DNA of 64,000 bases from Mesorhizobium sp. B2-1-1. GTDB taxonomy: Bacteria > Pseudomonadota > Alphaproteobacteria > Rhizobiales > Rhizobiaceae. The translations under genes and the position numbers were made by a program. Below, piece after piece: positions 27,374 to 44,306 of the stretch. The notes under the pieces are model-generated. The model did not search any database. It was given only the letters and a program-made list of their open reading frames with translations, and was not told where the DNA came from. The stretch's first letter is position 1, and each line of letters begins with the position of its first letter. Location: positions 372,001 to 436,000 of the forward strand of contig NZ_CP083955.1 of assembly GCF_006442975.2 (NCBI RefSeq). Reading direction: 5' to 3'.

Positions 27374-27382
27374 TCGAGGAAC

Positions 27383-28597: not shown

Positions 28598-28627
28598 GTT
28601 CTTTCTCCCATTTGAAGCGACCGCCGA

Positions 28628-29638
28628 CTAACGGCTTCGCAGATTGAGCCGCCCACGCTGGAGCAGCAAAGCGATGATGATGATCCCGCCCTGCACCAGG
28701 TCGCGGAATCCCTGCGAGAGGCTGAGCGTGGTGATGACGGTGGACAACGTGCTGAGGAAGAGCGCGCCGGCAAGAGTTCCGAGATAGATGCCGGAGCCAC
28801 CGGTGACCCGTGCGCCGCCGATGACGACGGCGGCGATGGAGGGCATCAGCAGCGCATCGCCCATGTCAAGCGTCGCGCTCGAGGAATAGCCGGCCAAGAG
28901 GATGCCGGTCATTCCGGCACAAAGGCCGCTGATGGCATAGACTGCGATGGTGAGCGCGGCGATCGGCAGGCCCAGCACGTTGGCCGCGCCAGGGCTGCTG
29001 CCAATGGCGTAGAGCTTGCGGCCTTCCGCGCTCTTGTTCTGGAACAGCCAGGCGAACACCGCAAAGACGATTATGAAATAGACGGGGTAGGGTACCCCCA
29101 GCCAGCGGGAGCTCATGAACTGCTGGATCGCAGGAGCGACCGATTGTTGCGAATTGCCCGCGGTGAAACCCAGCGCCACCCCGAAGAATGTGATGCCGGA
29201 CGCCAGCGTCACGATGAAGGGCGGGATCTTGGCAATCGCCACACCGATGCCGTTGATGAGACCGATGCCAAGACAGCACAAGAGGGTAAGCGGAATGGCG
29301 TACAGCAGCGCGTCGTTGCTGCCGCGCGTAAGTTCCGCGATCATCATGCCGCCGACACCGATGACCACGCCCAGTGACAAGTCGATGCCGCCCAGAAGGA
29401 TCACCAGCCCCTGCCCGAACGAAGCGACCACCAGGAAGATGGCGGTAACCAGTATGGCGGTGAGCTGGTCGAACGAACCGAAATTGGGACTGGCGATCTT
29501 CGTGCCGATGACCAGCAGCGCCGTGGCGGCGAACACGGTGATCGGCGGCACAAGGTCCGATGAGACAAGTGCGCGGCGCGCGCTCTGCGCGCCGTGCTCG
29601 GACGTCTGTGCCGGGGTCGTAATGTCCTTGTCGGTCAT
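28628..29638 (-). CDS. Ribose-type ABC transporter permease (second permease)
   Basis: This is a 336-residue membrane protein with eight or more hydrophobic segments. It carries the branched permease signatures SFGQGLVILLGGIDLSLGVV, INGIGVAIAKIPPFIVTLA and AVVIGGARVTGGSGIYLGT. Its ATG overlaps the stop of the preceding permease gene by one base (TGATG-type coupling at 29638). Each permease probably supplies half of a heterodimeric channel. The N-terminal 40 residues are cytoplasmic and polar. Confidence 0.9.
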   Translation of the reverse strand: MTDKDITTPAQTSEHGAQSARRALVSSDLVPPITVFAATALLVIGTKIASPNFGSFDQLTAILVTAIFLVVASFGQGLVILLGGIDLSLGVVIGVGGMMIAELTRGSNDALLYAIPLTLLCCLGIGLINGIGVAIAKIPPFIVTLASGITFFGVALGFTAGNSQQSVAPAIQQFMSSRWLGVPYPVYFIIVFAVFAWLFQNKSAEGRKLYAIGSSPGAANVLGLPIAALTIAVYAISGLCAGMTGILLAGYSSSATLDMGDALLMPSIAAVVIGGARVTGGSGIYLGTLAGALFLSTLSTVITTLSLSQGFRDLVQGGIIIIALLLQRGRLNLRSR

Positions 29639-30612
29639 CAGGCTTCCCTTCTCGCGGAACGGCGCGCCAAATAGACGGAGGCTTGGCCGAAAAGGATTGC
29701 CAAGATCATGATAAGTCCGTTGAAGATGTTGGTGTAAAAGTCAGCCACGCCGAGCGCGAACAGCATCTTTTGCAACACCGTCAAAATACCTGCACCGGCC
29801 AGCGTGCCGACCACCCCGCCGCGACCGCCGAACAGGGACGTGCCGCCGATCGCGACCGCCGCGAACATGAACAGCAAGAAGGAATCGCTGATGCGTGGAT
29901 CGCCCGAACCGATCTCGGCGCTGAAAACGAAGCCGGCCATGGCATAGAACAGGCCGGCGGCCACGAAAGCGAATAGCCTGGTGGCGCGGATATTGAGCCC
30001 CGAGAGCCGCGCGGCCGTCTGATCCGTGCCGACCGCGTACATTGCTATGCCCATGCGCGAATGCTTGAGCAGAAACCAGAAGACGAGCACCAGCACCAAC
30101 AGGATCGCCGGCACGGGAATGCGTAGAATGTCGCCGGTGATGCCATAAGCGATGGATTCCACCACCTCGCCGCCAGGTGCCGGAAGGATGAGGAGCGCGA
30201 TGCCTTGGCATGCGATCAGAGAACCGAGCGTCACGGCGAGCGACTGCAGTCCAAAATAGGCGACCAGTATGCCGTTGAGACCACCGACCACGAGGCCGAC
30301 CAACAGAACCAGGCCGAAGCTGCCAAGGGCGCCCGCATCGCCGCCACTCACCGTCGCCACCACCACATTCGCGATGGCGATCACACCGGGGCCCGAAAGG
30401 TCCAGCTCGCCGCATACCACGACGAGCGTCAGTCCCGTTGCGGCGAGGGCGAGTACGATGGCGTTGTTGAGGAGGTTACCGATGCCGAACAGCGAGAGTG
30501 CCGAAGGCTCGTGGGCGGCATAGACGGCGAACATGACGATAAGCAGGCCGATGGCGGCGACCGCTCCGTTGCCTAGAATTGTCAAGCGGCCGCGAGGCGT
30601 ATCGGATGCCAT
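29638..30612 (-). CDS. Ribose-type ABC transporter permease (first permease)
   Basis: This 324-residue integral membrane protein has TGLTLVVVCGELDLSGPGVI and VGGLNGILVAYFGLQSLAVTL, and the coupling loop AVAIGGTSLFGGRGGVVGTLA. These are the marks of RbsC-like permeases. It begins two bases after the ATPase stop and overlaps the next permease by one base. Ser-Gly-Pro in place of the usual Ser-Gly-(Gly/Val) after DLS is a small deviation. The operon is controlled from the region 32151-32468. Confidence 0.9.
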   Translation of the reverse strand: MASDTPRGRLTILGNGAVAAIGLLIVMFAVYAAHEPSALSLFGIGNLLNNAIVLALAATGLTLVVVCGELDLSGPGVIAIANVVVATVSGGDAGALGSFGLVLLVGLVVGGLNGILVAYFGLQSLAVTLGSLIACQGIALLILPAPGGEVVESIAYGITGDILRIPVPAILLVLVLVFWFLLKHSRMGIAMYAVGTDQTAARLSGLNIRATRLFAFVAAGLFYAMAGFVFSAEIGSGDPRISDSFLLFMFAAVAIGGTSLFGGRGGVVGTLAGAGILTVLQKMLFALGVADFYTNIFNGLIMILAILFGQASVYLARRSARREA

Positions 30613-30614
30613 CG

Positions 30615-32150
30615 TTACGCCCCTTGGGCGGCAGGCCGCCGCGACCCGTCGCGATAACCGGATGCCAGCGACAGCATACGGTCCTGTGAGAGATGGTCGC
30701 GGCCCAGCTCGCCGGCAATCGAATTGCGGTAGAGAACGAGGCAGCGATCACAGAGCTGAACGAGTTCGTCCAGTTCAGTCGAATAGAACAGGATCGAGCC
30801 GCCATCGCGCACGAACGCGCGCATCATGGCGTATATGTTGCGCTTGGCGCCGACATCGACACCGCGCGTGGGATCGAACAACAGCAGGCACCGCGCGCCC
30901 GTTATCAGCGCCCGCGCCAGCACCGCCTTCTGCTGGTTGCCGCCCGAAAGCGCGCCGACGTTGAGGGGCAGGAGCTGCTTCGAAAGGTTCACTGCCGGGG
31001 TTACCTGCTCCACCAGCCGCAGCTCGGAAGATCTGTTTACGAGCTTGAATGGGCTCACCTTGTCTATCACCGGCAGCGAGATATTCGCCTGCGTGGTGAG
31101 ATCGTGAAACAGTCCTTCGGACTTTCGTTCCTCCGGCACCAGCACCATGCCGAGCCTACGCGCCGCGCGAGGCGAGCCGACCGAAGTCGCCTTGCCTGCG
31201 ATCGAGATCGTGCCCTCTCGCAGCGTCGACAAGCCCACCAGCGACTTGAAGAGACTGGACTGCCCGTGACCCTCCAGACCCGCCACACCAAGAATCTCGC
31301 CGGGAGCCAGCGAGAAGCTGATATCATTGACGCCAGGGCCGATCAGGTGACCGACCTCCAGCGCCGGCGTGGCGCCGACGCGAACCGCCGACGGCGCCTT
31401 CTCCGCGGATTCAACCACGGAGCGACCGGCCATACTGCTGAATATCGCTTCGTCGCTCATGGATTCAACATCGCTTTCCAGCACCTTGCGGCCGTTACGC
31501 AGGATAACGCAGCGCTGGCACAAGCGGCGGATCTCGTCGAGCTTGTGGCTTATGTAGAGCACTGACGTGCCGCCACGAACAGCGGCATCGACCAGCTTGA
31601 AAAGCCATTCACGGTCGGAGAGCGCGGCGGTCGCTTCGTCGAGCACCAGCACGGCCGGGCGGTGCCGCAGCGCACGCACGATCTCGACCTTCTGGCGCAT
31701 GCCGAGCGGCAGATCCTCGACCAGCCGCCGGGGCGCGATATCCGCCACGTCATGGGCTTGAAGAATCTCAGCCGCCTCACGCTCGATGTTGCGCGCCGAC
31801 ACCAGACCAAGGCGGTTGAGTGCCGGGCGCGGCAGGAACAGGTTCGCGGCCACTGACAATGTCGGAATCAGGCTGAGTTCCTGGAAGGCGGTTGCTATGC
31901 CGGCCAAGCGGGCGTCCACAATGCCCTGCGGCTTGAAAGGAGCGCCGCGCAATTCGATGGAGCCGGTATCAGGTGTGACGACGCCACTCAGTATCTTCAC
32001 GAGTGTCGACTTGCCGGCGCCATTTTCGCCGAGCAGACCGCACACTTCGCCGGAGCGCATTTCAAACGAAATATCCTCAAGCGCAATCGTGGCACCGTAG
32101 CGCTTGGACACGGATCGGAAATCAAGGACGTTGTGCGTTCTATCCTTCAT
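30615..32150 (-). CDS. Ribose-type ABC transporter ATP-binding protein (two ATPase domains)
   Basis: This 511-residue RbsA-type protein has two nucleotide-binding domains. Domain 1 has Walker A GENGAGKSTLVKIL, signature DLPLGMRQKVEIVRAL and Walker B VLVLDEATAAL. Domain 2 has a degenerate Walker A (GLEGHGQSSLFKSL, no Lys) and signature LSGGNQQKAVLARAL. Its Walker B is LLLFDPTRGVD, in which the usual Asp-Glu pair is Phe-Asp. Only domain 1 should hydrolyse ATP efficiently, as is common for this family. It is the first gene of the importer operon, and a perfect FadR-type operator lies 26 bases upstream of its start. Confidence 0.92.
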   Translation of the reverse strand: MKDRTHNVLDFRSVSKRYGATIALEDISFEMRSGEVCGLLGENGAGKSTLVKILSGVVTPDTGSIELRGAPFKPQGIVDARLAGIATAFQELSLIPTLSVAANLFLPRPALNRLGLVSARNIEREAAEILQAHDVADIAPRRLVEDLPLGMRQKVEIVRALRHRPAVLVLDEATAALSDREWLFKLVDAAVRGGTSVLYISHKLDEIRRLCQRCVILRNGRKVLESDVESMSDEAIFSSMAGRSVVESAEKAPSAVRVGATPALEVGHLIGPGVNDISFSLAPGEILGVAGLEGHGQSSLFKSLVGLSTLREGTISIAGKATSVGSPRAARRLGMVLVPEERKSEGLFHDLTTQANISLPVIDKVSPFKLVNRSSELRLVEQVTPAVNLSKQLLPLNVGALSGGNQQKAVLARALITGARCLLLFDPTRGVDVGAKRNIYAMMRAFVRDGGSILFYSTELDELVQLCDRCLVLYRNSIAGELGRDHLSQDRMLSLASGYRDGSRRPAAQGA

Positions 32151-32175: not shown

Positions 32176-32188
32176 TTGGTCAGACCAA
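32176..32188. promoter_or_regulatory. FadR/GntR-type operator, perfect palindrome, upstream of the importer operon
   Basis: TTGGTCAGACCAA is a perfect 13-base dyad of the TGGTCnGACCA class bound by FadR-family regulators. It lies 26 bases upstream of the importer ATPase start, a position that would block transcription. Confidence 0.72.
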
Positions 32189-32261
32189 GATTGGAGCTAG
32201 CACGCCTTACCCGCCATGACAATTAAGAAAACTTGCAAGAAAGCTTGAATTTTCAGCACAT

Positions 32262-32274
32262 TTGGTCTGACCGG
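32262..32274. promoter_or_regulatory. FadR/GntR-type operator, second site
   Basis: TTGGTCTGACCGG keeps the full GGTCTGACC core and has two mismatches in the right flank. It is centred 86 bases from the first site. Confidence 0.6.
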
Positions 32275-32318
32275 AAATGGGTGGTCGAAAAGCAATGCGA
32301 AGGGCACCAAATCCACCA

Positions 32319-32346
32319 TCAATTCTGCTGTTTCCAGCAGAATTGA
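32319..32346. promoter_or_regulatory. Perfect 12-bp stem-loop between operators
   Basis: TCAATTCTGCTG and CAGCAGAATTGA flank the loop TTTC with no mismatch. It lies between the deacetylase stop and the importer promoter. It could end the upstream transcript, although no U-run follows, or it could be a binding site or leader element. Confidence 0.6.
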
Positions 32347-32398
32347 CGGGAGCTGCCATCGGCGAGATGACACAGAAAGTATAATCAATCCGATCTAT

Positions 32399-32411
32399 CG
32401 GGTCTGACCAC
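32399..32411. promoter_or_regulatory. FadR/GntR-type operator, third site
   Basis: CGGGTCTGACCAC carries the complete nine-base core GGTCTGACC with weaker flanks. It is the most distal site from the importer start and lies 58 bases past the deacetylase stop. Confidence 0.5.
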
Positions 32412-32468
32412 TCAAGCGAACCGGGCCGGAGACCGCGCGGCGATCCCGGCATAGTACGCCGAAGCCGC

Positions 32469-33368
32469 TCAGGATTTGGGACGTGCCTTGCCGCTGCGCG
32501 GGAAGCGCTTGCCGAAATCGGCCGCGATCTCTTCCATCTTGACGAACTTCACGCCCTCGAAGCCCTTCATATAGTCATGGAGCCGTTCGTGCATCTTCAG
32601 CACATGCGGCTTGCCCGACACGTCGGGATGGATCGTCAGCGGGAACACGGCATAGTCGTAGTTCTCGTAGACCCAGTCGAACTGGTCGCGCCACATCTGC
32701 TCGATATCGCGCGGGTTGACGAAGCCGTGACTGTTGGGCGAGGCCTTGATGAACATCATCGGCGGCAGGTCATCGAGATACCAGGATGCCGGTATCTCGA
32801 TGAGATCGGTCTCCTCGCCTTGCGAATACGGCTTCATCCAGCTGGATGGATGCTTGGAATAATCGATCTTCGTCCACTGGTCGCCGACCGTCACATAGTA
32901 GGGGTGATGGTCGTTATGCATCAGCGAGTGGTCGTAGAGCAGCCCCTTCTGCTTCAAAAGCTCATTTGTTTTCGAGCCGAACTCCCACCAGGGAGCGACA
33001 TAGCCGCGAGGCGCCTTGCCGCAAAGCTTGGTGATCAGGTCGACGCACTTGTTGAAGATGGCCTCTTCCTGCTCGGGCGACATGGCGATCGGGTTCTCGT
33101 GGCTGTAGCCATGCATGCCGATCTCGTGGCCAGCGTCCGCCACTTCCTTCATTTCGTCCCAAAAGCTCTCGATGGAATGACCGGGGATGAACCATGTCGT
33201 CTTGATCCCCCACTTTTCGAACATCCGAAGCAGCCGGAGGCTGCCGACCTTGCCTGCGAAGGCGCCGCGAGAGATGTCGCAAGGGCTGTCCTCACCGCCG
33301 TAGGAACCCAACCAGCCGGCGACAGCGTCAACGTCCACTCCGTAGGATACAAACATTTCTTTCGGCAT
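32469..33368 (-). CDS. Polysaccharide-deacetylase-fold protein of the HpPgdA/cyclic-imidase-like group
   Basis: This is a 299-residue NodB-fold protein without a signal peptide, hence cytosolic. It starts [20 protein letters not shown] and has a metal site of Asp14, His86 and His90 (HGYSH). As I recall, this is the same arrangement as in Helicobacter PgdA, whose close relatives include bacterial cyclic-imide hydrolases. Other motifs are [11 protein letters not shown] and YVAPWWEFG. The catabolic setting and lack of export make a polysaccharide substrate unlikely. Hydrolysis of a cyclic imide or related amide is the better guess. It follows the GntR regulator gene by about 40 bases. Confidence 0.8.
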
Positions 33369-33409
33369 CTCTCTTCCTTTCGTTGTTCATGTCCCCGGCC
33401 GAAGGGCGT

Positions 33410-34174
33410 CTAGGGTAGTTGCGAGGGTGGAAGACCGGCCCGGCTTCCCGCCATGCTGATATGTTTGCGCATGTAGTAGTTGGCGCCATCGGGATCGCCC
33501 ATGGCAATCGCCTCCAGGATGCGATCATGCTCCTGCACCGCGAACAGCAGATTGCCCCGCCGCTCGGTGGGCAGGCGCTGGCTCTCCAGCAGCACGCTCG
33601 CGAATGTCTGGTGCATGTCCACCAGCAGCTTGTTGCGCGAGATGCGCATGATGAGGTTGTGGAAATCGAAGTCCGTCTGCGCGTAGGAATTGAGGTCCTT
33701 TTCGCGCGCCGCGTTGCGAAAGGCGATCGTGCATTCCTTCAGGTCGGCGATCTCCTGATCGGTATGGGTCAGCGCCGCGAGCTCGGCGGCGTAGGATTCG
33801 ACGATGTAGCGGAACTGATAGACCTCGCTCAGCGAATAACGCGCCGCGAAGCGCCAGGACGGAGTTGCCGGTGCGCCGGAAGGGTCGGCACAAACGAAGC
33901 CCCGCCCTCCCTCGCGCGCAACGATCTCGCCGATGGTGGCGAGGATCGACAGAGCCTCGCGCAGCGTGGCGCGGCTCACATTGAGGTCGCGGGCCAGGTC
34001 GCGCTGCGGCGGCAATGTATCGCCTGGTCGCAACCTGCCGTCGCGGATCATCGACTGCAAGGCGGCCACCGTTGCCTGGGCCACACCGCCGCTGGCTTCC
34101 CGGCGCTCGCGCCGCAGGTCGGGCGGCTGTAAGGCCGCCGTCTTTCCATCATCACTAAGATTGCGTTTCATCAT
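33410..34174 (-). CDS. FadR-subfamily GntR transcriptional regulator (FCD domain)
   Basis: This is a 254-residue protein. The N-terminal winged helix-turn-helix runs from IRDGRLRPGDTLPPQRDLAR to VSRATLREALSILATIGEI (about 42-85). An all-helical FCD ligand domain with FDFHNLIMRISRN and EHDRILEAI follows, where Asp and His residues bind a metal and the acid ligand. Such regulators repress catabolic operons and recognise TGGTCnGACCA-like dyads. Sites of this type occur three times in each of the two control regions flanking its gene cluster. It is therefore the likely regulator of both importers and the asparaginase operon. Its ligand is probably a pathway acid. Confidence 0.9.
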   Translation of the reverse strand: MMKRNLSDDGKTAALQPPDLRRERREASGGVAQATVAALQSMIRDGRLRPGDTLPPQRDLARDLNVSRATLREALSILATIGEIVAREGGRGFVCADPSGAPATPSWRFAARYSLSEVYQFRYIVESYAAELAALTHTDQEIADLKECTIAFRNAAREKDLNSYAQTDFDFHNLIMRISRNKLLVDMHQTFASVLLESQRLPTERRGNLLFAVQEHDRILEAIAMGDPDGANYYMRKHISMAGSRAGLPPSQLP

Positions 34175-34258
34175 GGCTAGGCCCCAGCGTCAGCAGGAAT
34201 TGTCGCCACATAGCTAGAACAAGATACATTTGGATGGAACCATTCAGCCCGCGGTTGA

Positions 34259-35008
34259 TCAGAGCATGACATCGCCGCCGTTCGGATTCATGGTCGCGCC
34301 GATGTAGTAAGCGCCCTCCTCCGACGCCAGCAGCACGGCGGTGGGAGCGATTTCGTCGACATGGCCGGCGCGGCCGATCGGCAGTTCGCCGAGCTTGCGC
34401 TTCTTCCATTCCTCCGGCAGCGCCTTGAATAGCTCCGTTTCGATCGGGCCGGGACAGATGGCATTCACGGTGATGCCGTCGCGCGCCACCTCATAGGCGA
34501 GCGAGCGGGTGAAGCCGATGACACCGGCCTTGGCGGCCGCATAGTGCGCCATTTCCGGCGCGCCCTTGTGACCGAGCTGCGAGGCGATATTGATGATGCG
34601 GCCGAACTTGCGGGAAATCATCGGCTTCAGCACCGCGCGCGTGCAAAGAAAGACGCTGCGCAGGTTGACGGCCATCATCTGGTCCCACATGCCGGTGCTC
34701 ATTTCGGCGACGACGGACGTCGTGTCGATGCCGGCATTGTTGACCAGTATGTCGATATGGCCGAGCGCCGCCTCCACCTTCTTGACGGCTGCCTCGACCT
34801 GCGCCTCGTCGCTGACGTCGGCCGCGACGGCGAAGGTCCTTGCACCGAAATCAGCAAGGGCGGAGATGCGCGCCTCGGCGGCCTCGAGTTTCAGGTCGAG
34901 AACGGCCACGTCGGCGCCCTCGCGCGCGAAGGCCGTGGCAATCGCGCCACCGATGCCGCGTGCGCCTCCCGTGACCAGTGCTTTCTTTCCAGCGAGACGT
35001 CCTGACAT
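34259..35008 (-). CDS. SDR-family oxidoreductase (3-oxoacyl reductase-like)
   Basis: This 249-residue classical SDR has the cofactor motif TGGARGIGGAIATAFA, NNAG in DILVNNAGID, the catalytic Ser in INIASQLG, Tyr-x3-Lys in HYAAAKAGV and the ending YYIGATMNPNGGDVML. ATG 35008 follows an AGGAAATGGGA region. An acidic residue after the second strand (VLDLKLE) suggests NAD preference. It lies between the peptide importer ATPase and the GntR gene, all on the minus strand and probably co-transcribed. Confidence 0.88.
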   Translation of the reverse strand: MSGRLAGKKALVTGGARGIGGAIATAFAREGADVAVLDLKLEAAEARISALADFGARTFAVAADVSDEAQVEAAVKKVEAALGHIDILVNNAGIDTTSVVAEMSTGMWDQMMAVNLRSVFLCTRAVLKPMISRKFGRIINIASQLGHKGAPEMAHYAAAKAGVIGFTRSLAYEVARDGITVNAICPGPIETELFKALPEEWKKRKLGELPIGRAGHVDEIAPTAVLLASEEGAYYIGATMNPNGGDVML

Positions 35009-35037
35009 GCTTGGTTTCCCATTTCCTGGTTGATTGA

Positions 35038-36093
35038 CTATCGTAGCGAAGACGCGAGACCACCGGGCGCCGGCCGGCCGAGGATGCGTTCGGCTTCCTT
35101 CATGAACACGTTGAAGGTGTCGGAGGCCGGCACCGAAGCGGCGACGTCCTTGTGGCGAAAGCAATGGACCGTGTGCCGTTCGCCGACCGTCTCAGCCGGC
35201 GGCATCTCACGGCGGCAGCGATCGATGACGAACGGGCAGCGCGATGCCAGGAAGCAGCCCTGGGGCAGATTGATCGGGCTCGGGATCTCGCCTTTGAGGC
35301 TGACGCTGCTTTCGATCTTGAGATGCGGATGCGGCAGCATGACCGACGACAGCAAACCACTGGAATAGGGATGTTGCGGGCGATTGAAGACCGTTTCGGC
35401 GCTGCCCTGCTCAACGATCATGCCGAGATACATCACCGCGACGCGGTGGCTGATGAAGCGCACCGTGGAGAGGTCGTGGGAGATGAACAGATAGGCGGTG
35501 TTGCGTTCGCTCTGGATGCGCCGCAGCAAATCGATGATCTCGGCGCGGGCGGTCGGGTCGAGCGCCGAGGTCGGTTCGTCGAGGACGACGAGTTCGGGCT
35601 CCGTGACCATGGCGCGCGCTATGCCGACACGCTGCTGTTGCCCGGAAGGCAGCTCGGAAGGATAGGCGTCGAGCAAGTCGGTATCCAGCCGCACCAGGCG
35701 CAAGGCGTCGGCCGTGCGGCGGCGCCTCGTTTCGCGGTCGAGCTTTAGCGGCAGGAGCGGCTCGCAGATCGTGTCGCCGATCTTCATGCGCGGGTCGAGC
35801 GACTCGTTCGGTTCCTGGAATACAAGCTGAATCTTGCCAGCCAGCTTGCTCTTGTGTTGATGGCGCTGCGCCAGGTCGGTGCCGCGGAAGCGAATGTTTC
35901 CGGCGGTCGGCTCGATCAGGCCGACGATGCAGCGGCCGACCGTGGTCTTGCCTGAGCCACTCTCGCCCACGAGCCCCAGTGTCTCACCCGGCTCGATGGT
36001 CAGGCTGACGCCGTTGATCGCCTGTACCACCTGCTTGGAGCCGGCAATGGGGAAGCGCTTGTAGAGGTTGTCGATGGTCAGGACGGCGTTCAT
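35038..36093 (-). CDS. Oligopeptide-type ABC transporter ATP-binding protein (OppF/DppF-like)
   Basis: This 351-residue ATPase has Walker A GLVGESGSGKTTVGRCI, signature LPSGQQQRVGIARAM (variant of LSGGQ), Walker B LVVLDEPTSALD and the C-terminal oligopeptide extension with Cys-rich GCFLASRCPFVIDRC. I chose ATG 36093, which overlaps the OppD stop (ATGA), rather than a longer frame. It pairs with the ATPase just upstream to drive import through the permeases at 37123-39056. Confidence 0.9.
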   Translation of the reverse strand: MNAVLTIDNLYKRFPIAGSKQVVQAINGVSLTIEPGETLGLVGESGSGKTTVGRCIVGLIEPTAGNIRFRGTDLAQRHQHKSKLAGKIQLVFQEPNESLDPRMKIGDTICEPLLPLKLDRETRRRRTADALRLVRLDTDLLDAYPSELPSGQQQRVGIARAMVTEPELVVLDEPTSALDPTARAEIIDLLRRIQSERNTAYLFISHDLSTVRFISHRVAVMYLGMIVEQGSAETVFNRPQHPYSSGLLSSVMLPHPHLKIESSVSLKGEIPSPINLPQGCFLASRCPFVIDRCRREMPPAETVGERHTVHCFRHKDVAASVPASDTFNVFMKEAERILGRPAPGGLASSLR

Positions 36094-37115
36094 GCGTGCC
36101 TCACGGGGAAATGGCAGCGGACGAAGTGGCCCGGACCGATCTCGGCGAAAGGTGGCCGCTGTGCGCGGCAAACCGGCTGAGAGATGGGACAGCGGTTGGC
36201 ATACTGGCAGCCGGTGGGCGGTTCGCGCCGCCGGCCAGTGTCCGGCACGCTCCAGCTGTCGCGCAGCCTGGGGCTATGGGAGAAGGCTGCAAGCAGCATC
36301 AATGTGTAGGGATGCGCGGGCGCGAGGAAGAGAGCCTCGCGCGGCGCGATTTCGACGATTTCGCCCGAGAACAGCACAGCGATGCGATTGCAGAAATGCG
36401 CGGTGATGCCGACGTCGCGGGTGATGAACAGCATGGCGCTGCCATGCTCCGAGGCAAGCTTGGTCAGCAGGGCCAGGATCTGCGCCTGCACCGTGACGTC
36501 GAGTCCGCTGGTGGCGTCATCCGAGATGATAAAGGCCGGGCTGCAGATCAGCGCCATGGCGATGACGACGCGCTGCGCCATGCCGCCGGACAGTTCGTGA
36601 GGATAGGCATCCATGCGCCGTTCCGGGTCCGGTATCTGCACGTCGTGCAGGATCTTCAACGCCATGCGCCGCGCCTCCTTGCCGCCGACGCCGAGATGGA
36701 TCCTCGCCATCGCGGCGATCTGGTCGCCGACCTTGAGCAGCGGATTGAGCTCAGCGCGGGGATTCGGCACCACGACCGAGAGACGGCGGCCGCGAAGACG
36801 GCGGAGTTCGGATTCGGACAGGCTGAGGATCTGGCGGCCCTCGAAGTGGACTTCGCCGCCGGCGATGCGGCCCGGCGATGGCGGCAGCCCGAGGATGGAG
36901 CGGGCGAGCGTCGTCTTGCCCGCGCCACTCTCACCGACCAGGCCAACGATCTCGCCAGGCTGTACTGCAAGGTCGATGCCCTTCAGCACCGCCTTCGGTT
37001 CGGCGCTTCCGGACGGGAACGTCACGCGCAAGTTCCTGATGTCGATCAACGGCGGCTTGTCGCCGCCGGACGCGTTGCGCGTTTTGCTTATGATTTCTGC
37101 TGCGCCCAATGACAT
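36090..37115 (-). CDS. Oligopeptide-type ABC transporter ATP-binding protein (OppD/DppD-like)
   Basis: This is a 341-residue ATPase with Walker A GLVGESGAGKTTLARSI and signature LSGGMAQRVVIAMAL. Walker B reads FIISDDATSGLD, so the usual catalytic Glu of DEPT is Asp and the Pro is Ala. The C-terminal Cys motif is CQYANRCPISQPVC. The start ATG 37115 gives the expected OppD N-terminus (MSLGAAEIISK). The partner OppF has the normal Walker B, so the pair may have one weak site. Confidence 0.9.
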   Translation of the reverse strand: MSLGAAEIISKTRNASGGDKPPLIDIRNLRVTFPSGSAEPKAVLKGIDLAVQPGEIVGLVGESGAGKTTLARSILGLPPSPGRIAGGEVHFEGRQILSLSESELRRLRGRRLSVVVPNPRAELNPLLKVGDQIAAMARIHLGVGGKEARRMALKILHDVQIPDPERRMDAYPHELSGGMAQRVVIAMALICSPAFIISDDATSGLDVTVQAQILALLTKLASEHGSAMLFITRDVGITAHFCNRIAVLFSGEIVEIAPREALFLAPAHPYTLMLLAAFSHSPRLRDSWSVPDTGRRREPPTGCQYANRCPISQPVCRAQRPPFAEIGPGHFVRCHFPVRHA

Positions 37116-37122
37116 TCTCACA

Positions 37123-38133
37123 TTAATTGCTGATCCGCGGGTCGAGCAGGAAATAGATGAGGTCGACCGCGATGTAGACGATGAGGGAGAAGATGGCGGA
37201 GAAGAGCACAAAGCCCAGAACCGGATAGATGTCCGAATTCAGCACACCTTGCACCGCGTATTGCCCCGCCCCTCCCCACGAGAACACGATCTCGACGAGC
37301 ACCGCACCGCCGATCAGGAAGCCGTAGAGCACGCTGATAATGGTGACGATCGATGGCAACGCATTGCGCAGCGCATGGCGCACGACAAGGTTCTGCGGCA
37401 CCCCGCACAAAACTTCAAAGCGGCTGAAATCGGAGTCCAGCATCTTCTCCATCGTCGCCTGCGTCATCTTGAGGATGGGACCGGCATTCAGGAGCCCGAG
37501 CGTCATCACCGGCAGGACCAGATGCGCGCAGGCAGACCAGAAGGCCTGCAGGTCGCCGGCGAGAAGCGCGTCGATGGTGAGGGCTCCGGTGACCGGCGCC
37601 GGCGGTATGACGATCATGTCGATACGGCCGAGAGGCGCAGGCGCCCAGCCGAGCACGGTATAGAAGATGAAGATCAGCACGAGGGCGAACCAGAAGTCCG
37701 GTAGCGCACCGGCACTCAAGCCATAGAGATCGGACAGGCGCGCGATCCAGCCGTTTGGCTTGCGCGCCGCATAGACGCCCAGCGTTACCCCAACGATGAT
37801 AGCCAGGAGCAGCGAAAGCGTGACGAGTTCGAGGGTCGCCGGGAAGCGCTGAAGCAGATCCTCGAGCACCGGCCGCGTTGTCTGCCAGGAGGTTCCCAGG
37901 TCGCCATGCAAGAGATTGCGCACATAGATCAGGAACTGCATGTAGAGAGGCTGGTCGAGCCCGAGCTGCTGGCGCAGTGAGGCGATGGCCGAAGGCGTCG
38001 CCGTGGGCCCGAGCATCAGCACAGCGGGGTCACCCGGAATGCTCTTCACCAGCAGGAAGCTCACGAGCACAATGCCCAGCAACTGCGGGATCACGAAAAT
38101 CAGGCGCTTGGCGAGATAGGCCAGGATGCGCAT
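37123..38133 (-). CDS. Oligopeptide-type ABC transporter permease (DppB-like)
   Basis: This is a 336-residue permease with six predicted helices. It has the DppB start MRILAYLAKRLIFVIPQLLG, the periplasmic IPGDPAVLMLGPTATPSA, and the coupling loop with VLCGVPQNLVVRHALRNALP. Its ATG 38133 overlaps the stop of the next permease gene by one base (TGATG). It forms the channel together with the DppC-like protein. Confidence 0.92.
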   Translation of the reverse strand: MRILAYLAKRLIFVIPQLLGIVLVSFLLVKSIPGDPAVLMLGPTATPSAIASLRQQLGLDQPLYMQFLIYVRNLLHGDLGTSWQTTRPVLEDLLQRFPATLELVTLSLLLAIIVGVTLGVYAARKPNGWIARLSDLYGLSAGALPDFWFALVLIFIFYTVLGWAPAPLGRIDMIVIPPAPVTGALTIDALLAGDLQAFWSACAHLVLPVMTLGLLNAGPILKMTQATMEKMLDSDFSRFEVLCGVPQNLVVRHALRNALPSIVTIISVLYGFLIGGAVLVEIVFSWGGAGQYAVQGVLNSDIYPVLGFVLFSAIFSLIVYIAVDLIYFLLDPRISN

Positions 38134-39056
38134 CAGGCGCCCTCCGCCGGCCGGTCGACCCGGCGGCGATGCTCGCGTGCATCGCTCAGCAGCTGCCGGC
38201 GCTTGGACGGATCGGCCAGGACCTCGATGGACGCGCCGACCAACGAGAAGCCGAATACGGTGATCGCGAGCATCGCGCCGGGGAACATGGACGGCCACCA
38301 CTGGCCGGTCACCACGTTTTGAAAGCCCATGGCGATCATGCTGCCCCATTCAGGTGTCGGCGCGCGCACGCCGGCACCAACGAAGGACAGCGCCGAGGTC
38401 AGCAGGATGCCCCAGCCGACATTGACCGATAGCTGCGCCAGCACCGGCGCCATCGCATTGGGAATGATGTGGCGCCGAATGGTCTGCATGTCCGACAGGC
38501 CATTGACCTGCGAAGCCTCGACATAGCGCATGGAGCGGATGCTGAGCACCTGCGAGCGCATGAGACGCAAGTAGATCGGCGCATTGACGAAGGCTATGGC
38601 CAGAACCACCGTCTGGATGCTCTGACCGAGGCTGGCAACCAGGGCGATGGCGAAGACGAAAATGGGAAATGCCTGCAGCACGTCGGCCGCGCGCATGACG
38701 GCGAAGGATAGCCACACGCGAATGCCGCGCCCGCTGCTGTAGAAACCAACAACAGCACCGATCGAGCCGCCAATCAGCGCCGACAGGAGCGTGCCCAGTA
38801 TCGCGATCGTCAGGTCGATGCGGGGCGCGTAGATGGAACGACTGAAAATATCCATGCCGACATTGTCGGTGCCAAAGAGATGGGTGGCATCCGGCGGCTG
38901 CAGGAAGCTGGCCGAATCCGCCTCGGTCGGCGAATAGGGTGCAATGGCCGGCGCGAAGATCGCCAGCAGGGTGATCGCGATGACGATCAGATAGCCGATC
39001 GCAAATCTCGGCCGGATGACCGCCAGCCTCAGGAGAAGGCTAAGCTTCGAAGACAT
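38133..39056 (-). CDS. Oligopeptide-type ABC transporter permease (DppC-like)
   Basis: This 307-residue permease shows the OppC N-terminal region (FAPAIAPYSPTEAD, HLFGTDNVGMDIFSRSIYAP) and the EAA loop YVEASQVNGLSDMQTIRRHI. Its last residues overlap the DppB-like start. It lies 63 bases after the binding-protein gene, which leaves room for an RNA stem that allows a higher level of binding protein. Confidence 0.92.
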   Translation of the reverse strand: MSSKLSLLLRLAVIRPRFAIGYLIVIAITLLAIFAPAIAPYSPTEADSASFLQPPDATHLFGTDNVGMDIFSRSIYAPRIDLTIAILGTLLSALIGGSIGAVVGFYSSGRGIRVWLSFAVMRAADVLQAFPIFVFAIALVASLGQSIQTVVLAIAFVNAPIYLRLMRSQVLSIRSMRYVEASQVNGLSDMQTIRRHIIPNAMAPVLAQLSVNVGWGILLTSALSFVGAGVRAPTPEWGSMIAMGFQNVVTGQWWPSMFPGAMLAITVFGFSLVGASIEVLADPSKRRQLLSDAREHRRRVDRPAEGA

Positions 39057-39119
39057 CTAAGATCTTTCCGATACACTAACTTGTCCCCGGAGGCGGCAGC
39101 CTCCAGGGACAAGACCTCA

Positions 39120-40781
39120 TCAGCCGCGGCTGAAATCCTGGAACCGAAGATTATTGGACGTGTAGTAAGTGTAACCCTTGAGGTTCGCCTTACGCGCCAG
39201 CGTGTATTTCGGATAAGCAATGAAGCCCCAGGGCGCTTCGTCCATCAACGTCTTCTGCACCTCCGAGTATTTCTGCTTACGCACATTGTCATCAAGCGTG
39301 GCAAGACCGTCCTTGATCATCTGATCGACGCTCTTGTTGTCATAATTGGAATAGTTCACGTAGCTTTCGGAGTTGAAGTAGAGGTAGGTCGAGTAGCCCG
39401 GATCCGGCGTCCACGGCGAATCCAGATAGAAGATCATCGGCTTGGCGCGCTTGGTGACGTTCTCGTAAAACACGCCGGCCGGCAGCTTCTCCAACGTCAG
39501 CTCCACGCCGATCTGCTTTAGCGCGGTCTGGATCAGCAATGCGATCGGCTCCTGCGTCGGGTCGCCGGCGTTGTAGGACAAGGTGGTCGCCAGGTTCTTG
39601 GCGCCTGCCTTGTCAAGAAGCTCCTTGGCCTTGGCAAGATCATAGCCGTACGCGAAGAAGCTTTCATCCGCCATCGGGTAGATATAGGGCATCGGCGCCT
39701 TCTGCTCGTCGGCATAGCCGTAGTAGATGGTGCGGATGATCTCGTCGCGCGGGATAGCGAGGTTGATGGCACGGCGCACGTCGACATTATCGAATGGAGC
39801 GATCTTGGAGTTGAGCTCCAGCCAGATCATGTAGGACGAATTGACGGCATCCACCGCCACGTTCTGCTGCTTCTTCAGCGCCTCCAGTTCGCGCGGCTGC
39901 AGGAACTGTGCGATGTCGACCGCGCCGCCCTGCAGCAGCGAGAAACGACTGGCCGACTGCGGCACTTCGCGCATGATGACGCGCTTCATGAAGGGCTTTT
40001 CATCCCAGTAGTCTTCGCGCGCCTCGAACACGGCTTGTTGACCGCGCACGAGCTGGGCAAGGCGATATGGGCCAAAGCCAGCACTATCGTTCTTGAGGAA
40101 ATTGACCGCCCACGGGTCGTCGGAGCCACCGGCTTCGGCGCATTTGGTGGCGTCGTAGATCGGGTTGGCGAGGTTACACTGCTGCTTGAGAAGCAATGGA
40201 TTTGGCTGTTCGAGATTGAAGGAGACCGCATAGTCGCCTTCCACCTTGATCTGGTCAGGCGTCTTGAGACCGAGCACCGCGGTCTGGAACAGGCCTTGCC
40301 CCTTGAGGTTGAACTTGCGGTCCCAAGTCCATTTTACGTCCTTGGACGTGAACTTGTTGCCCCAGTTGGAGACGACACCCTCGCGTAGCTTGAAGGTCGC
40401 CTTGCGGCCATCGGGGGCCACTTCCCAGCTTTCCGCCAACCGGCCGCGCAAGGCGAGGTTGTTCGGCTTGTCGGTATGGACGCCGGTATCCTCCCGCAGC
40501 ACGCCGGGTGCATTGGGATCATCCATCTTCTCATAGCCAAGCATGTACTCGTAGAGCGCACCGAGGGAATCGATGGAGCCCAGGCTGACGTCGAACTCGA
40601 TGTCGAGGCCCTGGGGCGTCGCGGGCGCCGCGATCACCAGCGTACTGTTTGCGTCCTGCGCGAAGGCTTCCCCCAAGCGGCCGGTCGATGCAGCAAGTGC
40701 GGCACCGCCGAAGGCGGCAGTCGTTTTCAGGAACTGACGGCGCGTGGGCGCCAACCGAATTCTGGTAAAATCATCAACCAT
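39120..40781 (-). CDS. Oligopeptide-type ABC transporter substrate-binding protein
   Basis: This is a 553-residue family 5 solute-binding protein. It is exported by a twin-arginine signal (PTRRQFLKTTAAFGGAALAA, cut after EAFA). The mature part has SWEVAPDGRKATFKLREGV, KDVKWTWDRKF, FDNVDVRRAINLAIPRDEI and SYNAGDPTQEPIALLIQTAL, which are family landmarks. ATG 40781 was chosen because a longer frame would include the operator region. The ligand may be a peptide, an opine-like or another amide compound. It is the first gene of the minus-strand operon that probably runs to the deacetylase at 32469. Confidence 0.9.
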   Translation of the reverse strand: MVDDFTRIRLAPTRRQFLKTTAAFGGAALAASTGRLGEAFAQDANSTLVIAAPATPQGLDIEFDVSLGSIDSLGALYEYMLGYEKMDDPNAPGVLREDTGVHTDKPNNLALRGRLAESWEVAPDGRKATFKLREGVVSNWGNKFTSKDVKWTWDRKFNLKGQGLFQTAVLGLKTPDQIKVEGDYAVSFNLEQPNPLLLKQQCNLANPIYDATKCAEAGGSDDPWAVNFLKNDSAGFGPYRLAQLVRGQQAVFEAREDYWDEKPFMKRVIMREVPQSASRFSLLQGGAVDIAQFLQPRELEALKKQQNVAVDAVNSSYMIWLELNSKIAPFDNVDVRRAINLAIPRDEIIRTIYYGYADEQKAPMPYIYPMADESFFAYGYDLAKAKELLDKAGAKNLATTLSYNAGDPTQEPIALLIQTALKQIGVELTLEKLPAGVFYENVTKRAKPMIFYLDSPWTPDPGYSTYLYFNSESYVNYSNYDNKSVDQMIKDGLATLDDNVRKQKYSEVQKTLMDEAPWGFIAYPKYTLARKANLKGYTYYTSNNLRFQDFSRG

Positions 40782-40830
40782 CTCTCGTTCCCCATTGGTT
40801 GCGCGAATACGCTTCGTTATCTTTCCGCTT

Positions 40831-40843
40831 TTGGACAGACCAA
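40831..40843. promoter_or_regulatory. FadR/GntR-type operator near the peptide-importer start
   Basis: TTGGACAGACCAA differs from the perfect dyad at 32176 by one base. It lies 50 bases upstream of the binding-protein start, inside the divergent control region. Confidence 0.62.
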
Positions 40844-40870
40844 AGAGCGTAACTGACATTAATGGACAAA

Positions 40871-40883
40871 TTGGCCTGACCGT
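40871..40883. promoter_or_regulatory. FadR/GntR-type operator, middle weak site
   Basis: TTGGCCTGACCGT keeps most of the core with three changes. It lies exactly 40 bases from the previous site, about four helical turns, which would favour cooperative binding. Confidence 0.42.
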
Positions 40884-40945
40884 CAATCACAAAAAATGCG
40901 AAAAATTCGTGCATTTCATGCACAAAAAAATAGCTTCTTGATTTC

Positions 40946-40958
40946 TTGGTCTGACCAA
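40946..40958. promoter_or_regulatory. FadR/GntR-type operator, perfect, upstream of the asparaginase gene
   Basis: TTGGTCTGACCAA is a perfect palindrome and lies 37 bases before the asparaginase start, the same geometry as the site at 32176 before the sugar-type importer. Confidence 0.72.
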
Positions 40959-40994: not shown

Positions 40995-41972
40995 ATGCGA
41001 AAAATCTGTCTGATGACAACAGGAGGGACGATCGCATCCAAGCTGGAAGCCGAGAGCGGACATGTCACCGCAAGCGTCACAGGATCGGAGTTGCGCGCCA
41101 TGCTGCACGATCCGCTCGATGGCATTGACATCGCCATCGACGAGTTCTGCAACGTCGGCAGCTATGCCATCGACCTCCCGCTCGGCTTTGCACTGGCCCA
41201 GCGGATTTCACACCACCTTCAAGGTGACTTCGATGGGGTCGTGGTGACCCACGGGACCGATACGATGGAGGAAAGCGCCTTTTTGGCTGATCTCCTTGTC
41301 GCGACTAACAAGCCGATAGTGTTCACCGGCGCACAGCACGCGGCCGATGAGGCGAACCCCGACGGCCCACGCAACCTCACGGATGCCATCCGGCTAGCCG
41401 CGTCCGAAACTGCGCGGGGCCTGGGCGCGATGATCTGCTTCGAGCAGGAATTCCATGCTGCGCGTGACGTGAGCAAGTCGCACAGTTCACGCACCGATAC
41501 CTTCATCTCCTACGAGCACGGCAAGCTCGGGGAAGTGGACGGCGACCGCATCGTATTGCACCGCAAGCCGGTCCTGCGCCGCACCTACGACGCAAAAGGC
41601 ATTGTCGCTGATGTCGATCTTATCAAGCTGGTCATGGGGATCGGTGACCGCTACATCCGCTTCGCCGCCCAGGATGGTGCCAAGGCCATCATTCTGGAGG
41701 GTTTCGGGCGGGGTAACGCGACGCCCGCCGTCACTGCCGCCGCGACGTCGCTTGTCGCCAATGGTACTCCCGTCATCATGACCAGTCGTTGCCAGCGCGG
41801 CCGGGTCAAGCCGATTTATGGCAATGGCGGCGGCAAGACACTCTCCGACGGGGGCGTGATCTTTGCCGGCGACTTGAGCGGCCAGAAAGCACGAGTGCTC
41901 GTGGCCGTCCTGCTCGGCATGGGCATCGAGGGCGAACGCCTGCGCCAGGAGATCGAATATTTCGGCGGCTGA
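40995..41972 (+). CDS. L-asparaginase-family amidohydrolase (type II fold)
   Basis: This is a 325-residue cytosolic protein. The first catalytic motif MTTGGTIASK has nucleophile Thr12, and the second, VVTHGTDTMEESAFL, has Thr88 and Asp89, with a supporting Lys in VFTGAQ-type context. ATG 40995 has GAGGA six bases before. The family hydrolyses asparagine, glutamine or related amides. Its position in a cluster with an imidase-like protein and tartrate enzymes suggests a half-amide of a C4 dicarboxylate as substrate, which is inferred. It heads the plus-strand operon and is preceded by a perfect operator. Confidence 0.9.
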   Translation: MRKICLMTTGGTIASKLEAESGHVTASVTGSELRAMLHDPLDGIDIAIDEFCNVGSYAIDLPLGFALAQRISHHLQGDFDGVVVTHGTDTMEESAFLADLLVATNKPIVFTGAQHAADEANPDGPRNLTDAIRLAASETARGLGAMICFEQEFHAARDVSKSHSSRTDTFISYEHGKLGEVDGDRIVLHRKPVLRRTYDAKGIVADVDLIKLVMGIGDRYIRFAAQDGAKAIILEGFGRGNATPAVTAAATSLVANGTPVIMTSRCQRGRVKPIYGNGGGKTLSDGGVIFAGDLSGQKARVLVAVLLGMGIEGERLRQEIEYFGG

Positions 41973-42051
41973 TGCCCGCTCTTCCACCGCCTGATTTCCG
42001 TAAGGCGGCCGTCCATCGCCGCCGTCCCATTCCTGCAGCCGAGGAACCATG

Positions 42052-43128
42052 ATGTCAGCAAAGAAGCACAGGATCGCGGTCATTCCCGGTGACGGGATCG
42101 GCAAGGAGGTCGTCCCCGAGGGACTTCGTGTACTGGAAGTGGCGGCAAGGCGCTTCGGCATCGACCTACAGCTCGACCATTTCGACTTTGCGTCGTGCGA
42201 TTACCATGCCAGGCATGGCCGCATGATGCCGGAGGACTGGAAGTCCCGGATCGGAAACCATGATGCCATCTTCTTCGGCGCGGTGGGCTGGCCGGCCATG
42301 GTTCCCGACCATATCTCGCTTTGGGGATCGCTGCTGCAGTTTCGCCGCGAGTTCGACCAATACGTCAACCTGCGCCCCGTCCGGTTGATGCCGGGCGTGC
42401 CCTCGCCGCTCGCCAACCGCAAGCCCGGCGATATTGATTTCTACGTCGTGCGCGAGAACACCGAGGGCGAATATTCATCTATCGGCGGCCGGATGTATCC
42501 GGGCACGGAGCGCGAGATCGTCATCCAGGAAACCGTGATGTCGCGCGTCGGCGTCGATCGCATCCTGCGTTATGCGTTCGATCTGGCGCAGAAGCGTCCG
42601 CGCAAGCACCTCACATCGGCCACCAAATCCAACGGCATCTCGATCACCATGCCGTATTGGGACGAGCGCGTCGAGGCGATGGCCGCCCAATACCCGGATG
42701 TCTCTTGGGACAAGTACCACATCGATATTCTGGCAGCCCATTTCGTGCTCAATCCGAACCGTTTCGACGTTGTGGTGGCATCGAACCTGTTCGGCGACAT
42801 TCTCTCGGATCTCGGACCCGCCTGCACCGGCACGATCGGCATCGCCCCGTCGGCCAACATCAACCCGGAACGCCGCTTTCCGTCGCTATTCGAGCCGGTA
42901 CACGGCTCGGCTCCGGACATCGCCGGGAAAGGCATCGCCAATCCGATCGGACAGATCTGGACGGCCGCCATGATGCTCGACCATCTTGGTCACGAGGAGG
43001 CTGGCCGCGCGATCGTGGAAGCCATCGAAGCCACGCTGAAGAGCGAAGCCACCCGCACCGGTGATCTCGGGGGCAAGGCCGATACCGTCACCTGCGGCAA
43101 GGCGGTGGCGGAGGCACTCGAAGGATAG
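42052..43128 (+). CDS. Tartrate dehydrogenase / D-malate dehydrogenase (decarboxylating) family protein (copy 3)
   Basis: This 358-residue protein has IAVIPGDGIGKEVVPEG, VRENTEGEYSSIGG, TKSNGISITMPYWDE, NLFGDILSDLGPACTG, FEPVHGSAPDIAGKGIANP and the C-terminal TRTGDLGGKADT. ATG 42052 is better spaced from GAGGA than the adjacent ATG at 42049. It is followed nine bases later by D-tartrate dehydratase, so this copy most probably acts on tartrate or malate isomers and yields oxaloacetate, glycerate or pyruvate. In place of TKSNAQRH, seen in copies 1 and 2, it has TKSNGISIT, so the substrate pocket differs. Confidence 0.88.
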   Translation: MSAKKHRIAVIPGDGIGKEVVPEGLRVLEVAARRFGIDLQLDHFDFASCDYHARHGRMMPEDWKSRIGNHDAIFFGAVGWPAMVPDHISLWGSLLQFRREFDQYVNLRPVRLMPGVPSPLANRKPGDIDFYVVRENTEGEYSSIGGRMYPGTEREIVIQETVMSRVGVDRILRYAFDLAQKRPRKHLTSATKSNGISITMPYWDERVEAMAAQYPDVSWDKYHIDILAAHFVLNPNRFDVVVASNLFGDILSDLGPACTGTIGIAPSANINPERRFPSLFEPVHGSAPDIAGKGIANPIGQIWTAAMMLDHLGHEEAGRAIVEAIEATLKSEATRTGDLGGKADTVTCGKAVAEALEG

Positions 43129-43136: not shown

Positions 43137-44306
43137 ATGCGCATCGTCGACATCAGGGAAAAGACCGTCTCGATCGCCTCCCCCATCGCCAACGCCTATA
43201 TCGACTTTTCGAAGATGACTTGCTCGGCCGTCGCCGTGATCACCGACGTGGTGCGTGATGGCAAGCCGGTGGTTGGCTACGGCTTCAACTCGAATGGCCG
43301 CTACGGGCAGGGCGCGCTGATGCGCGACCGTTTCCTCGCGCGCGTCCTCGAGGCCGATCCCGAAACACTGATCGACCATGAGAACGACAACCTTGACCCG
43401 TTCGCCATCTGGAAGACGCTGATGACCAACGAGAAGCCCGGAGGCCACGGCGAACGGTCCGTGGCGGTGGGCACCATCGACATGGCCGTCTGGGATGCCG
43501 TCGCCAAGGTCGCCGGCGTCCCGCTGTGGCGCCTGCTGGCGGACCGTTACCGGGCGGGCGTGGCGGACGAGAAAGTTTGGGTCTACGCGGCAGGCGGCTA
43601 CTATTATCCCGGCAAGGATCACTCGAAGCTTCAGGCGGAGATGCGGGGCTATCTCGACCGCGGCTACAAGGTCGTGAAGATGAAGATCGGCGCGGCGCCC
43701 CTGGATGAGGATCTGCGCCGCATCGAGGCCGTGCTGGAGGTGGTCGGTGGGGGCCAGTATCTGGCTGTCGATGCCAACGGACGCTTCGACCTGAAGACCG
43801 CCGTCGCCTATGCCAAGGCGATGCAGCCATACGGCCTGTTCTGGTACGAGGAGGCCGGCGATCCGCTGGACTATGCGTTGCAGACGGAACTGGCGAACCA
43901 CTACGGTGGGCCGATGGCGACAGGCGAGAACCTGTTCTCGCACCAGGATGCGCGCAACCTCTTGCGCTACGGCGGCATGCGGCCCGACCGCGACTATCTT
44001 CAGTTCGACTGTGCCCTCTCCTATGGCCTGGTGGAATACCTGCGCACGCTGGAGGTGATGAAGGCGCTTGGCTGGTCGTCACGACGCGTGGTGCCGCATG
44101 GTGGACACCAGATGTCGCTCAACATTGCCGCAGGGCTGCATCTGGGCGGCAACGAATCCTATCCCGACGTTTTCCAGCCCTTTGGCGGCTTCGCCGACGA
44201 CATCGCGGTCGAAGATGGCTATGTCGGGCTACCCGATGTTCCCGGTGTCGGCTTCGAGAAGAAAGCCGAACTGTTCAAGCTGTTCCGACAATTGCACCAG
44301 CCGTGA
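43137..44306 (+). CDS. tarD: D(-)-tartrate dehydratase (enolase superfamily)
   Basis: This 389-residue protein belongs to the mandelate racemase group. The catalytic Lys pair is Lys181-Met-Lys183 (VVKMKIG), metal ligands are Asp212 (VDANGRFD), Glu238 (WYEEAGDP) and Glu264 (ATGENLFS), and the general acid/base is His321 (VPHGGHQ). Every one is shifted by just one position from what I recall for the characterised Bradyrhizobium enzyme, and AYIDFSKMTCS and GGYYYPGK also match it. It dehydrates D-tartrate to oxaloacetate with Mg. It lies next to a tartrate-dehydrogenase paralogue, so tartrate isomers are probable pathway intermediates. Confidence 0.93.
   Translation: MRIVDIREKTVSIASPIANAYIDFSKMTCSAVAVITDVVRDGKPVVGYGFNSNGRYGQGALMRDRFLARVLEADPETLIDHENDNLDPFAIWKTLMTNEKPGGHGERSVAVGTIDMAVWDAVAKVAGVPLWRLLADRYRAGVADEKVWVYAAGGYYYPGKDHSKLQAEMRGYLDRGYKVVKMKIGAAPLDEDLRRIEAVLEVVGGGQYLAVDANGRFDLKTAVAYAKAMQPYGLFWYEEAGDPLDYALQTELANHYGGPMATGENLFSHQDARNLLRYGGMRPDRDYLQFDCALSYGLVEYLRTLEVMKALGWSSRRVVPHGGHQMSLNIAAGLHLGGNESYPDVFQPFGGFADDIAVEDGYVGLPDVPGVGFEKKAELFKLFRQLHQP

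Follow-up and report, generated by a model that had tools for sequence, protein, structure and literature searches.

The stretch of 64,000 nucleotides analysed here (the window; Mesorhizobium sp. B2-1-1, contig NZ_CP083955.1) belongs to a 6.18 Mb genome of two contigs and carries an island of transport and amide-breaking genes. Within it lies the gene of a GntR-family regulator, designated REG, between a short-chain dehydrogenase gene (SDR1) and the gene of an imidase-type enzyme (PDA1), in an operon headed by an oligopeptide-type importer. An initial annotation had pointed to six copies of a 13-bp dyad, TTGGTCNGACCAA, as operators of this regulator, and all six are present, two of them perfect and the others with one to three mismatches. 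They fall in two intergenic stretches, 32151-32468 (region A), ahead of a ribose-type importer, and about 40782-40994 (region B). These are the two control regions that had been described as flanking the regulator gene, although region B is 6.6 kb away from the REG start codon and stands at the head of REG's own operon. The regulator and the dyads are the following (positions are those of the window; L numbers designate compared loci):

33410..34174, reverse strand: REG, FadR-subfamily GntR regulator of 254 residues (Pfam GntR and FCD)
32176..32188, no strand assigned: ribose-operon operator 1, perfect, 25 nt upstream of the ATPase ATG (32150); matrix score 29.6; matched in L013
32262..32274, no strand assigned: ribose-operon operator 2, two mismatches, 86 bp from operator 1; matrix score 19.8; the L013 match is 75 bp from the first
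32399..32411, no strand assigned: claimed sixth site, three mismatches; matrix score 5.8, not above chance
40831..40843, no strand assigned: operator O3, one mismatch, adjoining the start of the oligopeptide-type operon; matrix score 23.1; 8 of 13 columns invariant
40871..40883, no strand assigned: operator O2, degenerate (three mismatches) and conserved; matrix score 13.9; 10 of 13 columns invariant
40946..40958, no strand assigned: operator O1, perfect, 36 nt upstream of the asparaginase-like ATG (40995); matrix score 29.6; 10 of 13 columns invariant in seven loci

Candidate operators and the regulator

A genome scan with the 13-mer, proposed with the initial annotation as a check, recovered only two exact copies, both at the island. 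With up to three mismatches the window holds 30 matches compared with 19.0 +/- 4.3 in shuffled sequences, so that mismatch counts alone give no support to the copies at 32399 and 40871. The window was then scanned with a weight matrix built from 16 sites, which came from 10 loci in other organisms. Ranks one to five were taken by 40946, 32176, 40831, 32262 and 40871, in this order, where 0.13 hits per 64 kb are expected at a score of at least 13 and about 5.7 per 64 kb at a score of at least 5. Five of the six predicted operators are therefore well supported, while the one at 32399 scores at the level of chance. It is possibly a decayed site, since its aligned counterpart in L013 reaches 14.4. 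The hit at rank six (53458, score 13.7) was set aside because it lies inside a 519-codon open frame; its score is so close to that of 40871 that the latter is supported mainly by conservation, not by score. The one-sided pattern TTGGTCWGACC gave nine matches in the genome, five at the island and four elsewhere (four in the control), and the four one-mismatch sites found elsewhere (L003-L006) are inside long open frames. No mention of the 13-mer, in either form of its centre base, was found in the openly licensed PMC literature.

REG has an N-terminal GntR winged helix (PF00392, 59.0 bits, cut-off 27) and a C-terminal FCD domain (PF07729, 101.4 bits, cut-off 24.3). It stays far below the cut-off of every named NCBIfam model (NanR, 109.2 bits of 260; PdhR, 90.0 of 330; LldR, 81.6 of 311), and an identity as FadR proper, the fatty-acid regulator, was rejected with only 22.7 bits of the 249.2 set for TIGR02812. 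The closest solved relatives are PdhR (9jpj, 59.6 bits) and NanR (6on4, 53.3 bits). By its sequence, REG is best classed as a further member of the FadR subfamily and not as any of the named ones. In the DNA-binding part, Arg58, Arg68 and Arg72 are invariant in 16/16 orthologues, and so are Asp168, His172, His216 and His238, to which NanR and PdhR have identical counterparts in the alignment. These four correspond to the metal site of FCD proteins, an Asp/His/His/His set that holds a metal together with an acid ligand. Because REG keeps these residues, one acid ligand is plausible. Its location inside the oligopeptide-type operon makes it probable that REG is autoregulated via O2 and O3, which is the simplest reading.

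Conservation among loci

Counting the window's own genome throughout, REG was detected in 4 of 146 genomes of the genus (E 1e-60). Wider sampling gave 5 of 397 genomes for the order and 4 of 394 for the family (both E 1e-45), and for the class 1 of 385 (E 1e-50), which is the genome of the window itself. Ten loci came from scanning genome contigs, and REG was also found together with both importers on a conjugative Bradyrhizobium plasmid. The island, with its transport and amide-breaking genes, is patchily distributed. After removal of duplicates, 15 further loci from several families (about 295 kb) were compared. A dyad with at most two mismatches is present in an island control region in all 15, and with at most one mismatch in 11; all 17 dyads of the latter class lie at island control regions and none elsewhere in the ca. 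295 kb. In two loci (L014 and L017) there is no importer operon upstream of the regulator; there it is the regulator that is divergent from the asparaginase-like gene, and the sites are found between those two genes, i.e., they move with the regulator. Since all 15 further loci have the dyad in an island control region, the assignment of these predicted operators to one local FadR-subfamily regulator, as proposed in the initial annotation, is well supported.

Within the genus, the perfect 13-mer was present in 4/4 regulator-bearing genomes, where its five copies are confined to the island, and in 23 of the 142 lacking the regulator (25 sites, versus 22 for the reversed control in the same set), an association between perfect site and regulator with a Fisher p of 0.001.

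The arrangement of region B is itself conserved. All three sites recur in the window and in 8/8 related divergent regions, including O2, which scores from 13.9 to 16.3 although none of its copies was in the training set. In the seven regions that were aligned, site columns are 0.90-0.93 conserved versus 0.73 outside them. The pair that the initial annotation had seen to be spaced by 40 bases (O2-O3) keeps a spacing of 40-42 bp in 9/9 regions, while O1-O2 varies between 62 and 86 bp and O1-O3 between 103 and 127 bp. O1 lies 36 nt from the asparaginase-like start here, 32-37 nt in seven of the eight others and 43 nt in L021, and the distance between O3 and the importer's aligned N terminus is 42-47 nt in 7/7. 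A TTGACG next to O2, noticed by eye, could be a -35 element. The reading that we prefer for region B, judging from these distances, is one predicted operator per promoter plus the fixed O2/O3 pair, in which cooperativity is plausible.

Catabolic genes and the likely substrate

The oligopeptide-type operon, the divergent asparaginase/tartrate genes and the genes beyond region A are as follows:

39120..40781, reverse strand: oligopeptide-type solute-binding protein, first gene of the REG operon (SBP_bac_5, 272.6 bits); open frame listed from 40886, start placed by the conserved N terminus
35038..39056, reverse strand: oligopeptide-type importer; permeases 38133-39056 and 37123-38349, ATPases 36090-37211 and 35038-36171
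34259..35164, reverse strand: SDR1, short-chain dehydrogenase (open frame; domain from near residue 50; adh_short, 219.1 bits)
32469..33368, reverse strand: PDA1, imidase-type "polysaccharide deacetylase" (Polysacc_deac_1)
40995..41972, forward strand: ASN, asparaginase-like amidase (Asparaginase N and C domains; best PDB match 8h44, an L-asparaginase, 179.4 bits)
42049..43128, forward strand: TTC, tartrate dehydrogenase family (TIGR02089, 594.5 bits, above the cut-off of 470.4)
43137..44306, forward strand: TarD, enolase-superfamily dehydratase of the Bll6730 type (636.9 bits to PDB 2dw7, "Bll6730 protein"; 702.4 to 4kem)
44559-45419, forward strand: second short-chain dehydrogenase (domain match; candidate operon member only)
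45617-46531, forward strand: polysaccharide deacetylase resembling PuuE allantoinase, towards the end of the run of tartrate genes (1z7a and 3cl6, 91.9 and 88.6 bits; candidate operon member only)
27383..32150, reverse strand: ribose-type ATP-binding cassette importer; ATPase 30615-32150, permeases 29638-30612 and 28628-29638, binding protein 27383-28597
26870..27199, reverse strand: unnamed CxxC protein of 110 residues, between the imidase-type gene and CobW (relatives compared)
25834..27012, reverse strand: CobW/COG0523-type GTPase (open frame; domain from near residue 55; cobW, 146.5 bits; CobW_C, 78.5)

Both importers and the asparaginase/tartrate operon had been assigned to a single regulon, which the analysis supports, and predicted sites precede each of them. 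The ribose-type importer, however, is near the sites in only 2 of the 15 other loci (L013 and L021), and from this gene content we regard it as an accessory part of the island. What had been called an amidohydrolase operon does contain the asparaginase and tartrate genes, but the more telling imidase-type enzyme, the CobW protein and the CxxC protein had been missed. Among the 15 loci, relatives of the asparaginase-like gene, PDA1 and CobW were each found in 10 and those of SDR1 in 11. TTC and TarD are near the sites in five (L011, L012, L016, L028 and L029, the last with a second TTC relative), and PDA1 and CobW also recur in loci without them. The Bll6730 protein, to which TarD is so similar, is a D-tartrate dehydratase.

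PDA1 matches HP0310 (HpPgdA, PDB 3qbu) over its full length (residues 1-292, 456.6 bits). According to passages of PMC9304392, 3qbu is the nearest structural homologue of HxnM. This cyclic imidase acts before an amide hydrolase in the nicotinate breakdown of Aspergillus nidulans, and the same passages give it 64.2% identity with a Pseudomonas putida cyclic imide hydrolase homologue. In 3/3 plasmid neighbourhoods that were opened, PDA1 relatives are accompanied by short-chain dehydrogenases, an asparaginase or amidase, importers and a GTP-binding protein, and in one of the three also by a dihydropyrimidinase. "Cyclic imide hydrolase" was not found together with "polysaccharide deacetylase" in the openly licensed PMC literature. 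With this gene content, the island may encode a pathway that turns a cyclic imide into a half-amide and then into a hydroxy-dicarboxylate, for and against which the chances seem to us evenly balanced. In six genomes of the genus (L061-L066) the PDA1 copies were reported with one in-frame stop, TAG in G125 (L061) and TAA in G136, G036, G029, G007 and G020; in the TAA cases the alignment ends near residue 294, and the stop may be the protein's own end.

The CxxC protein begins with MCxxCG and has invariant HW and DPL motifs. It was found in 11/11 sequences searched and is a "hypothetical protein" in three query records; four relatives gave no Pfam match and the window copy no NCBIfam match. In a plasmid collection, 55 records contain it, and in 52 of these its distance to an imidase-type gene is 4-260 bp (median 33); in the other three no imidase was among the matches listed, which possibly did not comprise all 80 imidase records. 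Its structural model has a mean predicted local distance difference test (pLDDT) score of 72.8, with residues 1-29, the CxxC part, below 50, and Foldseek returned no PDB match for it at E 0.001. GTPases of the COG0523/CobW group are metal chaperones. A cyclic-imide pathway under repressor control might have its own metal-loading module, with the CxxC protein and CobW either inserting the imidase metal or guarding it, an idea that we put forward tentatively and would on balance call unlikely. "Imidase" together with "CobW" was not found in the openly licensed PMC literature.

In the window, the ribose-type operon (27200-32468, with its own operators) separates PDA1 from the CxxC protein by 5.3 kb; the gap in L011 is 0.26 kb, and either an insertion here or a loss in L011 would account for it. 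By gene order CobW and the CxxC protein could belong to the ribose-type operon, but a 16-bp hairpin that is nearly perfect (about 27333-27370, seen by eye and not listed by the scanner) intervenes after the ribose-type binding-protein gene and is possibly its terminator.

Alternative explanations and related systems

It is, in our judgement, very probable that a local FadR-subfamily repressor controls one catabolic island through the dyads at its two control regions, with a cyclic-imide pathway as its most likely content. From the sites, their conservation and the gene content, which are read in the sequences themselves, we infer binding, repression, inducer and substrate. REG would bind TTGGTCNGACCAA-type dyads at both control regions: in region B at O1, for the asparaginase-like/tartrate promoter, and at O2/O3, for the promoter of the importer-SDR-regulator-imidase operon, and in region A at two sites ahead of the ribose-type importer. 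Once bound, it would block RNA polymerase at the island promoters and limit its own synthesis, until it is released by a small carboxylic acid that arises in the pathway and is held at the FCD metal site. The genes thus derepressed would serve to take up and break down a small molecule with an amide group, most likely a cyclic imide, whose ring the imidase-type enzyme would open. The asparaginase-like enzyme would then remove ammonia from the half-amide, and the tartrate/malate-type enzymes would carry the hydroxy-dicarboxylate into central metabolism.

Several observations weigh against this picture. A promoter scanner found no sigma-70-like promoter in regions A and B. The compared loci are related and partly near-duplicate (L011/L012, L018/L020 and L030/L031). 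PDA1 was not seen beside the regulator in 5 of the 15 (L013, L016, L019, L028 and L029), of which L013 is a 3.8-kb contig and in L028 the contig ends soon after. PDA1 is linked to the characterised imidases via its match to HP0310, and HP0310 itself is reported in passages of PMC3688963 to have acetylesterase and acetylxylan esterase activity and in passages of PMC3084791 to be inactive on N-acetyl compounds and allantoin; the passages of neither paper mention an imide test. As for rival readings, matches with at most two mismatches number, genome-wide, 169 versus 162 for the reversed control, so weak sites carry no meaning without other evidence, and no further regulon member can be claimed. 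This lack of excess and the many three-mismatch matches in the window are what one would expect if a short palindrome fell by chance in two intergenic regions, a coincidence that we consider practically negligible, contradicted as it is by the independent matrix, the conservation in 15 loci and the fixed positions. The dyads might also be real operators of another, unlinked FadR-type regulator that the local one only resembles. The initial annotation had named dyads at unrelated promoters as adverse evidence; no perfect one exists elsewhere in the window's own genome, nor were paired ones seen at one mismatch, but in 3 of the 23 Mesorhizobium genomes that lack the regulator and contain a perfect site, another dyad follows at a distance of 73-75 bp (L045, L051 and L056; around 1501-1590). 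In the single annotated case the pair precedes a DJ-1/PfpI-type gene, and the 10 kb taken around each contain no close REG relative (one weak match, E 1.6e-4). Another FadR-type regulator probably reads a similar dyad in those genomes, so the dyad alone does not identify REG, and it also fits the general consensus of the subfamily as given in passages of PMC4494728. Even so, an unlinked regulator seems to us quite improbable at the island, as the dyad accompanies REG in all 15 loci, from several families and including the conjugative plasmid, and the perfect sites of regulator-lacking genomes are at control level.

Two further alternatives accept REG and its operators and concern what they do. 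Looping, suggested in the initial annotation, was not borne out, the spacings being no more than suggestive. A looped or cooperative complex of the three region-B sites that closes both divergent promoters together would agree with the constant O2-O3 spacing, which is kept also where the regulator gene lies downstream (L014 and L017), such constancy being treated as a sign of cooperative pairs in passages of PMC4494728. It would agree as well with the clustering in helical phase of O1-O2 (resultant 0.78, p 0.003) and O1-O3 (0.72, p 0.007), but these p-values are too small because the rows are related (with distinct values only they are about 0.02 each) and the period scan is broad, the resultant staying near its peak from 10.5 to 11.5. 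O1 and O3 keep their own distances to their genes, which one operator per promoter explains equally well, and we lean away from the complex without dismissing it. As for the substrate, the island could instead degrade tartrate, a tartrate amide or a peptide- or opine-like amide, with PDA1 as an ordinary small-molecule deacetylase. The score of TTC above its family cut-off, the Bll6730-type dehydratase, the oligopeptide-type importer and the acetylesterase activity of HP0310 (passages of PMC3688963) all suit this version, but the scarcity of TTC and TarD among the other loci, and the recurrence of PDA1 and CobW without them, speak against it. We regard it as a serious contender that falls somewhat short of an even chance.

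Under the local-repressor reading, regulator, operator and target genes are obtained as one set, backed by evidence from other species. Cyclic imides and half-amides are suggested as the substrate class for genes usually named "polysaccharide deacetylase," "asparaginase" or "hypothetical protein," including HP0310-type enzymes, whose natural substrate is called unidentified in the structure paper. The regulon is of a familiar type and well resolved; the fresh lead is the unnamed CxxC protein beside the imidase and CobW, a link that makes the question of metal delivery testable. If the metal-loading idea were true, imidase-type deacetylases would have a new family of accessory proteins, of which this one would be the first member.

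REG shares the GntR helix-turn-helix and the FCD domain with the FadR subfamily (NanR, PdhR, LldR), and its dyads show the palindrome with GT and AC three bases apart that passages of PMC4494728 describe for most operators of the subfamily. Unlike the named members (NanR, PdhR, LldR and FadR of the gamma type), it misses all their NCBIfam cut-offs and would have another ligand and regulon. TarD and TTC match the Bll6730 protein and tartrate dehydrogenase, respectively, but here they are in one operon with an asparaginase-like amidase. The HxnM pathway of A. nidulans uses a dehydrogenase, an imidase and an amide hydrolase in sequence (passages of PMC9304392), as the island genes would allow; it serves fungal nicotinate breakdown under its own regulator, HxnR, and no nicotinate genes were seen among the genes scanned at the island, where no search aimed at them was made. 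Finally, the island GTPase has the CobW and CobW_C domains of the COG0523 group and matches no named type (PRK11537, 197.1 bits of 361; ZigA, 96.3 of 600), and it is linked here to an imidase-type enzyme and to the unnamed CxxC protein.

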